Assembly (NCBI RefSeq): GCF_022869165.1
Contig: NZ_CP094929.1
Coordinates: 1,674,001 to 1,738,000 of the forward strand
Length of the DNA stretch: 64,000 bases
Origin: Sphaerochaeta associata
GTDB taxonomy: Bacteria; Spirochaetota; Spirochaetia; Sphaerochaetales; Sphaerochaetaceae
Reading direction: 5' to 3'
The notes under the pieces were generated by a model. That model worked only from the letters and a program-made list of their open reading frames with translations, was not told the origin of the DNA and did no database searches. The first letter of the stretch is position 1. Each line of letters starts with the position of its first letter. The translations under genes and the position numbers were made by a program. Positions 24,526 to 30,281 of this stretch are shown piece by piece.

Positions 24526-24996
24526 ATGAAACAAGATAAGAACACATTCAAGCCGCTTCAGAAGAACAAGAAGGCCTACTTCAATTATGAAGTCATAGAA
24601 GATTTGGAATGCGGCATTGCTTTGGTGGGTACTGAAGTGAAATCGTTGCGTGAAGGCCGTTTTAGTTTTGCCGACAGTTATGTAACAGTCACCGACCGGA
24701 CGCTGACTCTGGTAGGACTTACCATACAACCCTACACACATGGGAACATCCATAACCATGACCCTAACAGGAACAGAAGACTGCTTGCCCACAAGAGTGA
24801 GATCAAGAGGCTCAAGCGCAAGGTAATAGAAAAAGGCTTTACCCTCGTCCCTACTTCCATCTATCTTCGAGGCAACTTGGTGAAAGTGCAAGTATCCTTG
24901 TGCCGTGGTAAACAATTGCATGACAAACGTGCCGCAACCAAGGAACGTGATTTGAACAGGGATATGCGCAGGGAAGTCAAGCAGCTACAGTACTAA
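24526..24996 (+). CDS. smpB: SsrA-binding protein SmpB
   Basis: SmpB carries tmRNA to stalled ribosomes for trans-translation. The 156-residue protein matches the family in full: 'NKKAYFNYEVIEDLECGIAL', 'GTEVKSLREGR', 'DSYV', a central 'HDPNRNRRLLAHK' and a basic tail (HDKRAATKERDLNRD). Its ATG directly follows the previous stop codon, so it depends on upstream translation. Its RNA partner ssrA is about 5 kb away at 29907-30281. A rho-independent terminator follows. Confidence 0.97.
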   Translation: MKQDKNTFKPLQKNKKAYFNYEVIEDLECGIALVGTEVKSLREGRFSFADSYVTVTDRTLTLVGLTIQPYTHGNIHNHDPNRNRRLLAHKSEIKRLKRKVIEKGFTLVPTSIYLRGNLVKVQVSLCRGKQLHDKRAATKERDLNRDMRREVKQLQY

Positions 24997-25021: not shown

Positions 25022-25054
25022 AACACCAAGGAAGCAATTTCTTGGTGTTTTTTT
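25022..25054 (+). terminator. Rho-independent terminator of smpB
   Basis: AACACCAAG and CTTGGTGTT form a perfect 9-bp stem with a 10-nt loop, followed by a run of Ts. Confidence 0.9.
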
Positions 25055-25113
25055 CTGTCCAAATGTAAGAAAAAATTTTCTAATGTTTATAATAGAAAAA
25101 ATTATAAGAATCA

Positions 25114-25363
25114 ATACTGCTGATAAGGTGATAGATTGAATTTATAAATTACATAATGTATAGATATGTCATAAATAACTAGTAGGAATGTATAAATTTA
25201 TGTATATGTATTAATATGCAAGATTATAGAATATATCTTATATACCATCCAGTATTATATATATGTTTTTAAGCACAAGAAATATTATATTAAGGATTTT
25301 TTAATATTTTATAGTTAAATAAAATCCAATAATCAAATATATATACTGCTAATTTGGTAGATT
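25114..25363 (+). repeat. Spaced direct repeat ATACTGCT...GGT...AGATT
   Basis: Two related copies lie in the AT-rich segment: 25114-25137 (ATACTGCT, GATAAGGT, GATAGATT) and 25343-25363 (ATACTGCT, AATTTGGT, AGATT). They share the first eight bases, GGT and AGATT, with a 3-bp length difference. Their start points are 229 bp apart in the same orientation. Their relative GC content stands out locally. They could be recombinase arm-type sites. Confidence 0.5.
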
Positions 25364-25446
25364 ATGTTATATAAAAAAAATGGATATTACCTACAATTTA
25401 TATGCATATACATTATATATAATATAAATATATTTTTATACATAAC

Positions 25447-25481
25447 TATACATACTTACTCTATATAAGTAAGTATGTATA
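25447..25481. repeat. Perfect 14-bp inverted repeat upstream of the integrase
   Basis: The left arm (TATACATACTTACT, 25447-25460) and right arm (AGTAAGTATGTATA, 25468-25481) are exact reverse complements around a 7-nt centre. This is the layout of a tyrosine-recombinase core site (two inverted arms with a 6-8-nt crossover) or of a dimeric regulator's operator. It ends 137 bp before the integrase ATG. No U-tract follows on either strand, so it is not an obvious terminator. Confidence 0.75.
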
Positions 25482-25618
25482 AGATTAATCTCGACACAGA
25501 ATAAGTTTTAGTCTACTATATTATATAGATATAAATATTTTTAATGTTTCTAATAGTATTCAAAAATTTGATACGATTGAACAATAAGTTGAACAAATAG
25601 TCCAAATGGAGATACACA

Positions 25619-26902
25619 ATGGCGAGCCCTGCACCCTACACGCTTTGTAGAATATATCGAGGTGAAAGAGTCTATTATTATGCACTTTTTCGTGATCCAA
25701 CAACCGGGAAACGCACGAATAAGAAAAGCGTTGAGACGCTGCGCAAGGCTCTTGGGATTATTGAGACAGCCCCAATCAAGAGAAGGGATGAAGCTATTCG
25801 TATCTGCCAAAAGGCTTTGGAACAAGGATTGATCTTCGAAAAGAAACAGGAACGAACACTTCTCTCCTACCTACAGGACTTTTATACCTGGGAAGAGAGT
25901 GAGTATGTGAAGCGTAGAAATACTTTATCACCTGGCAGTATCTCGATCGATTACATAGGAACACGGAAAAACCTCCTGGATAACCATGTGTTTCCTTTGC
26001 TTGACAAGAATCTGTTACTCTCTAAAGTAACAGTAGGAATCCTTGAACAATTGCAGCTTCAATTGGTTGAACAAGGTGTTTTACATCATGCAACGATCAA
26101 CATATGCATGACAGCTGTTTCAACCGCACTGCGGGAAGCACAACGAAAAGGCTACATCCCATCTTCCACTTCTCTCTTCATTGCAGGCTTGCCGTGCATT
26201 CATACGCCCAGGGGAATTCTTAGCGAGCGGGAACTTGCTCTCTTCATGCAGTATGCAAAAGAAAAGAGTGAAAAACGAATATATCTGGCTTGTTTGGTAG
26301 CTCTTCTGACTGGAATGCGTTCAGGGGAACTGAGAGCACTCAGGTATGATGCTATTGGATGTGAGATGATTACCATTGACCAAGCCTATGCAGACAGGGC
26401 GGGAATAAAAGCACCGAAAGGGAAAAAGACGCGTTATGTCCCCTGTCCTGAGTTCCTGTGCACCGCTTTAAAGGAGTTGGCATTGGAAAATCCATTCGTT
26501 ACCATGCCGTCATTGGTATTCTGGAGCAAAAGAAATGGTTCTGTGGTATCGAGCCACTACTTCAGCGAACGATTCACCCAGGAACTTGTACGTTCGTCCC
26601 TATTCACAAAATCTGCATTGGCGGAAAGAAACATTAGCTTTCATAGCCTGCGACACATGGCTAATACCCTACTCCGGGGATCGGTCGATGAACATGTACT
26701 GCGTATGACCATCGGGCACAGCAGTCAGCAACTGAGTGATCTCTATACGCACTTAAGTCAGCGCGGCTTGAAAAGTGTCGCCCTTGCACAGCAGAACAAT
26801 ATATTGCCATTGCTGGGGCAAGGGTTCGCATTATCACCAGAACAAGTGGATGAACAGGAACAAGAGGACAAAGAGTATATTGACGATGGTGAAGAAGCCT
26901 AG
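25619..26902 (+). CDS. Tyrosine recombinase/phage-type integrase
   Basis: A 427-residue site-specific recombinase. It has an N-terminal AP2-like arm-binding segment (first 50 residues, 'YYYALFRDPTTGKRTNKKS'), a helical core-binding domain (about 75-190) and a complete catalytic domain. The catalytic residues are Arg in 'GMRSGEL', Lys in 'PKGKKTRY', His-x-x-Arg in 'FHSLRHMA', His in 'IGHSS' and the nucleophilic Tyr in 'SDLYTH'. It is larger than XerC/D and has an arm domain, so it is an integrative-element integrase. No excisionase, cargo or second att site is evident. The last 23 codons, an acidic tail, lie antisense to the end of the neighbouring transporter gene. GGAG lies upstream of the ATG. 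Confidence 0.93.
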   Translation: MASPAPYTLCRIYRGERVYYYALFRDPTTGKRTNKKSVETLRKALGIIETAPIKRRDEAIRICQKALEQGLIFEKKQERTLLSYLQDFYTWEESEYVKRRNTLSPGSISIDYIGTRKNLLDNHVFPLLDKNLLLSKVTVGILEQLQLQLVEQGVLHHATINICMTAVSTALREAQRKGYIPSSTSLFIAGLPCIHTPRGILSERELALFMQYAKEKSEKRIYLACLVALLTGMRSGELRALRYDAIGCEMITIDQAYADRAGIKAPKGKKTRYVPCPEFLCTALKELALENPFVTMPSLVFWSKRNGSVVSSHYFSERFTQELVRSSLFTKSALAERNISFHSLRHMANTLLRGSVDEHVLRMTIGHSSQQLSDLYTHLSQRGLKSVALAQQNNILPLLGQGFALSPEQVDEQEQEDKEYIDDGEEA

Positions 26903-29906: not shown

Positions 29907-30281
29907 TGGAGGTGGGGGGATTCGAACCCCCGTCCTAACGTGCCACCCAGGGACGTCTACAAGCTTAGCCTGTGATCAAATGTTCCAGAGGACGTTGGGT
30001 TCACCGGCAAGACGTCCATCCTCTGTATCCTACTTTAGTGTCCCCTCTCTCCATAGGAACTAGAGCGGGTAAGCCCTTGCTTTTACAGGGAACCGATACT
30101 TAAGAGCGGCAGTATTCGGACCTGTACGTCATCGTGCTGTTAAGCAGCGAAGGCGTATTCTGCGTCGAAGGAGACTTCGTCTTCTTTTTTGGCAGTTAAA
30201 TGTTTTTGCTAGTTTAAGGAGTTGGCGCTCCGCTTGCAGCCACTGGCCTGATCTTCCGCCAGTCGAAACCGAAACACCCCC
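29907..30281 (-). ncRNA. ssrA: Transfer-messenger RNA (tmRNA)
   Basis: tmRNA rescues stalled ribosomes with SmpB. The 5' end GGGGGUG pairs with the 3' CACCUCC to form the acceptor stem. The diagnostic 'GGUUUCGAC' follows the 5' stem, and the 3' T-arm reads GGGGGUUCGAAUCCCCC. The end is ...CCUCCA, so CCA is not encoded. The best tag frame starts at GCC (30193-30191) and encodes A-K-K-E-D-E-V-S-F-D-A-E-Y-A-F-A-A before TAA (30142-30140). Its SFD...YA.AA pattern fits spirochaete tags; the resume codon is inferred. The mature length is about 375 nt. Confidence 0.95.

Follow-up and report, generated by a model that had tools for sequence, protein, structure and literature searches.

In lambda-type recombination sites the core consists of half-sites around a 7-bp overlap. 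The attP site of a phage is built from a pair of inverted half-sites that enclose 7 bp, accompanied by direct repeats and an A+T-rich stretch next to the int gene. The cer and psi sites, at which plasmid multimers are resolved, combine a core with long accessory DNA in cis. A different arrangement is found in XerS/difSL and XerH/difH, where a single recombinase is encoded beside its single site (PMC5357621). When a tyrosine recombinase carries an arm-binding domain, this is taken as strongly predicting that it mobilizes a phage or an ICE, and the domestication of mobile integrases by their hosts is debated (PMC8138268). Because recombinases with such a domain are described as strongly tied to mobile elements, a vertically inherited integrase with a site of its own is a notable exception. 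In the collection of papers that we searched, there was no report of the lone integrase of Sphaerochaeta.

The integrase is encoded in a window of 64,000 nucleotides (G000:C1:1674001-1738000), the whole stretch that was analyzed, taken from a closed Sphaerochaeta-like chromosome of 3.55 Mb. All feature positions below are those of the window unless a contig is named. An earlier note on this DNA had described a complete tyrosine recombinase after A+T-rich, gene-free DNA beside smpB, and the analysis bears this out: the integrase ORF (25619-26902, plus strand, 427 aa) is complete and matches the Pfam family Phage_integrase (PF00589, E = 9.7e-18), and the conserved upstream neighbor is smpB (24526-24996, plus strand; Pfam SmpB, E = 4.5e-55). 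An intrinsic terminator of smpB can be read from the sequence at about 25027-25056 (plus strand; hairpin ACACCAAG...CTTGGTGT followed by a T-run), and the tract begins immediately past this hairpin, as had also been noted. It extends over 564 bp to the integrase (25055-25618, no strand), has an A+T content of roughly 80% (75-83% per 100-bp bin) versus about 54% in the integrase gene and contains no plausible ORF. The gene after the integrase is a convergent transporter. Reading the locus from smpB to the next gene, we agree with the earlier note that there is neither cargo nor an excisionase, and we found no flanking repeat pair; an integron cassette array (attC) is likewise absent from the locus.

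The catalytic domain is of the lambda-Int type with the full set of R-K-H-R-H-Y residues (R234, K269, H342, R345, H367 and the nucleophile Y376), which are invariant in an alignment of 16 orthologs and unchanged across 52-85% identity. In the predicted structure (mean pLDDT 79, pTM 0.51, with an uncertain domain arrangement) the N-terminus forms three short strands and a helix (beta-beta-beta-alpha). Tn916/lambda-type arm-binding domains have been described with this order of three strands and a helix (PMC8138268). Among PDB folds, full-length lambda integrase in complex with core DNA ranked first, ahead of the Tn1549 integrase and XerH; SroF of phi3T is also among the matches. Pfam did not recognize the arm-binding domain proposed in the earlier note, and we infer its probable presence from the predicted N-terminus together with the match to full-length lambda integrase. 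The protein scored far below the cut-offs of the Xer family models (XerD: 43.9 bits, cut-off 329.6; XerC: 38.9, cut-off 335; XerS: 23, cut-off 267) and also below that of the integron-integrase model (32.2 bits, cut-off 265). By fold, it is among the lambda-Int-like enzymes, yet the mobility that defines them was not found here.

Within the A+T-rich tract lies an exact 14-bp inverted repeat with a 7-bp spacer (TATACATACTTACT-ctatata-AGTAAGTATGTATA, 25447-25481, no strand). It contains the core site TACTTACT-ctatata-AGTAAGTA (25453-25475, no strand), a putative site of strand exchange. When at least 14 of the 16 arm bases and a 7-bp spacer were required, the pattern TACTTACT-N7-AGTAAGTA was found 162-182 bp upstream of the integrase at 25/25 loci with readable upstream DNA, the G000 locus included. 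The arms are near-invariant and the spacer is constantly 7 bp long while its sequence varies widely, and this conservation persists down to 44% protein identity. A reversed control of the pattern gave no match in 24 of the 26 genomes. Judged from this comparison, the inverted repeat is beyond chance, since its 16 innermost bases reappear at every one of the 25 loci at a matching distance from the gene, and the suggestion that it represents the core site is very likely correct. A spaced direct repeat (ATACTGCT..., at about 25113 and 25350) that had been put forward as an arm site has no counterpart in relatives and is not the arm site.

Besides the core, the sole conserved signal in the tract is a set of TTGA[A/G]CA direct repeats about 30-60 bp 5' of the start codon, typically 12 bp apart. 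In the window, copy 1 of TTGAACA occupies 25577-25583 and copy 2 follows 12 bp later at 25589-25595 (both plus strand; conserved at about -42 and -30); they are putative arm-type sites or operators. Pairs of TTGAACA are also numerous elsewhere in the genome, exceeding the reversed control; they probably lie in coding sequence and carry no information on the site. The remainder of the tract diverges in sequence between relatives and retains its A+T richness: the region from -400 to -60 has 74-90% A+T (25 loci) while the AT3 (third-position A+T) of the gene spans 27-86%. As the tract is A+T-rich whatever the AT3 of the gene, its composition itself seems to be kept. Several draft assemblies break in the tract, outside the core, probably owing to sequencing drop-out.

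The core is a single site. No second copy was detected in the 3.55-Mb G000 genome at up to 3 mismatches, which agrees with the absence of a second att copy remarked on earlier, and none of the 25 sites is occupied or duplicated, nor do two cores flank an insert in any genome. Programmed rearrangement, which had been offered as a possible host function, is unsupported because the genome has a single site. The only near-match to the core is the palindrome TAGTTACTTTCCATAAGTAAGTA (L081:4645-4667; G000:C1:2690644-2690666), which is conserved across the genus and coincides with the promoter of a sugar-isomerase-like operon that has a ROK-family repressor gene alongside. We rejected it as a second att copy; since its spacer does not match that of the core, it is probably the operator of the repressor. 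The window also carries a tmRNA gene (29907-30281, minus strand), which encodes the tag AKKEDEVSFDAEYAFAA and lies 3.0 kb away from the integrase. Genes of this kind (ssrA) are common integration targets, but the core motif has no second match in the genome. Two further interpretations of the core were discarded. There is no notable Rfam match, and the invariance of the arms, in place of covariation, favors protein binding over an RNA element. A telomere-resolvase site is at odds with the 7-bp non-palindromic spacer and with closed contigs that read through the site.

For the ortholog search we used 60 relatives, including 25 other genomes of the same genus, with one genome per species. Orthologs of the integrase are present in 21 of these 25 genomes (60-85% identical) and in a sister genus (G028, 53% identity), and a GTDB scan added further sister-lineage orthologs, including Pleomorphochaeta (44-54% identical). 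At each genus locus with a sufficiently long contig, smpB lies directly upstream of the integrase; in two sister-genus genomes the integrase is about 2.5 kb downstream of smpB. Comparing the smpB interval across relatives, as the earlier note had advised, revealed no clean empty site, because the four genomes without an ortholog either lack smpB in the assembly (G008 and G009), stop within the A+T tract (G005) or carry a transposase directly after smpB, near a contig end (G014). In the latter genome, a transposase-like gene (L134 / L276, G014:C7) stands where relatives carry the tract and the integrase, possibly reflecting loss of the module. A separate observation comes from a very A+T-rich sister lineage (L253:1-6460), in which the integrase and the core adjoin an antiporter gene away from smpB; therefore, either integrase and core are able to change place together or it is smpB that has moved.

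The integrase is under strong purifying selection (dN/dS of 0.053-0.098 in close ortholog pairs), and its protein distances track those of SmpB (Mantel r = 0.91, p = 0.0002, 16 genomes). The patchy presence and incongruent history of an integrative element were not found, the gene being present nearly throughout the genus, always at a single locus, and congruent with smpB. Neither were attL/attR or cargo: there is one core and no cargo. Viral, phage and plasmid collections contained no close relative of the integrase, nearly all matches having at most 30% identity. Its nearest paralogs (33-36% identical) are found in the same genus in integrative-element contexts near replication genes (DnaB-like, Lin1244-like), and they have neither the A+T tract nor the core. 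Two paralogous integrases (L270:7107-8414 and L272:3150-4469) with element-like surroundings both lie beside a similar lactonase-like gene and possibly share an insertion site. Relatives thus carry the same integrase and arm at this locus, diverged to a normal degree and free of alternative junctions, although such junctions could be missed with one genome per species. This is the outcome that the earlier note had itself named as speaking against its degraded or minimal element, and a degraded integrative element is therefore unsupported. In outline, its other proposal, that the arm has been retained to serve the host, gains support, as gene, core and A+T arm are conserved as a unit.

GC skew, sampled from stretches of the genome, flips sign around the window. 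Outside the window, at G000:C1:1647778-1647804 (minus strand), lies a candidate dif for the genus, AATAATATATATTCTGTTAACT, whose left end varies. Canonical dif, present as one copy in 16 of the 26 genomes, is located at the GC-skew maximum (1647778 in G000), and the core is found 47-52 kb from it in six genomes (G000, G018, G016, G019, G001 and G015). Like a site of the Xer/dif type, the core is therefore single-copy and near the terminus. Its closeness to dif may be ordinary shared synteny, given that the distance from xerD to dif is also fairly steady in five of these six genomes (115-171 kb). All 26 genomes have at least one Xer homolog; both XerC- and XerD-like matches were obtained in 23, and the other three are draft assemblies. 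In G000, the genes for XerC and XerD adjoin ftsAZ and hslVU.

How does the locus compare with the described systems? With lambda integrase and attP it shares the predicted three-part fold with a putative arm-binding-like domain at the N-terminus, the intact R-K-H-R-H-Y residues, inverted half-sites around a 7-bp overlap, distant direct repeats and A+T-rich DNA by the integrase gene. It differs in having no phage, excisionase or attL/attR, and in its vertical inheritance at one locus. XerS/difSL and XerH/difH resemble it as single chromosomal recombinases beside a single-copy site, vertically inherited and near the terminus, whereas the integrase described here has an N-terminus of predicted arm-binding type, is accompanied by a long A+T arm and occurs together with XerCD/dif, and its core differs in geometry. 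The integron integrase and attI of sedentary chromosomal integrons are likewise a host-resident tyrosine recombinase by its own primary site, but our locus lacks cassettes and attC sites and the protein stays below the integron-integrase cut-off. The cer and psi sites share a core with long accessory DNA in cis; in contrast, the module studied here is chromosomal and has its own dedicated recombinase, and the accessory role of its tract is putative.

Integrase and site almost certainly form a resident module of a recombinase plus its site. The module is vertically inherited, gene and site are conserved together, each genome has one site and the active site is intact. Core, repeats and tract together are best read as a complete attP-like site, intact, single and permanently chromosomal. 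That a lambda-integrase-type recombinase has been permanent since the ancestor of Sphaerochaeta and its sister Sphaerochaetaceae, kept with its own unoccupied site and most likely self-recombining, is in our estimate about evenly balanced between right and wrong. As to function, we favor self-recombination over a landing platform and the latter over a regulator, and only tentatively propose that the module may act as a second dif/cer-like system. Somewhat more guardedly, a lambda-Int-type integrase and an attP-like site could have been domesticated as a second near-terminus chromosomal system throughout a whole lineage that also keeps XerCD/dif.

In such a system the cis part would comprise the core, with two inverted 8-9-bp half-sites around the 7-bp overlap, direct repeats to be bound by the putative arm-binding domain at the N-terminus, and accessory DNA, rich in A+T, over about 450 bp. 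The catalytic part of the integrase would bind the core and its N-terminus the repeats, and strands would be exchanged at the core. The most likely, still unproven, partner would be an identical copy of the core on the sister chromosome or in a dimer, with the arm DNA serving as a topological filter like the accessory sequences of plasmid multimer-resolution sites, and the chromosome would then have, in addition to XerCD/dif, a second system for resolution or unlinking. An identical copy is the preferred partner, as for dif, because the overlap drifts freely, to which a fixed external partner is less well suited. Against this reading, known Xer-type resolvases have no arm-binding domain, which is described as strongly predictive of mobility (PMC8138268), and since Xer homologs and dif coexist, a second system is not needed for dimer resolution.

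The arm-binding-like domain and the arm repeats, which resemble a complete attP, would also suit a sedentary landing platform, where an integrase and site kept by the host capture, or are exploited by, incoming circles with a matching core, in the way that integron integrases use attI or IMEX use Xer/dif. Some elements are known to rely on recombinases of their host (PMC5357621). We consider this unlikely, though it is the strongest of the alternatives: all 25 sites are unoccupied and unduplicated, the overlap drifts freely between species, and 22 viral contigs bearing the palindrome have no such integrase nearby and an ordinary base composition, and were taken as chance matches.

A more doubtful explanation is that the protein is mainly a DNA-binding regulator or nucleoid organizer at its own A+T-rich locus, with the core as operator. 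Both the core and the TTGAACA repeats lie within the integrase's own upstream region, phage repressors with an integrase fold exist (SroF), and the similar palindrome beside the ROK-family repressor gene looks operator-like; however, pure binding would not require catalytic residues that are all invariant over 52-85% identity. A slow selfish or mobile mini-element, consisting of the A+T arm and the integrase, persisting by chance and occasionally moving, is very improbable. The different neighborhood of the module in L253 and the related integrases in integrative-element contexts of the same genus would fit such an element, but the fixed locus in the genus, the congruence with smpB, a dN/dS of 0.05-0.10, the missing att pair and the lack of tract and core in the mobile relatives do not. 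Finally, the module as the chromosome's main dif/Xer system, like streptococcal XerS/difSL, is largely refuted: a recombinase beside a single near-terminus site, as in xerS/difSL and xerH/difH (PMC5357621), and a locus near the GC-skew switch are outweighed by the presence of XerC and XerD genes, located next to ftsAZ and hslVU, and of a canonical dif in single copy where the skew is maximal.

Taken together, the preferred reading of a resident, probably self-recombining module suggests that a virus-type integrase has been taken over for a host job. An integrase of putative arm-binding type that is a core gene with a conserved site and no element is a counterexample to its automatic annotation as part of a mobile element. 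It is also an approachable example in which to ask how a host uses an integrase, a question made testable by the conservation of the core and by the fact that members of the genus have been cultured.
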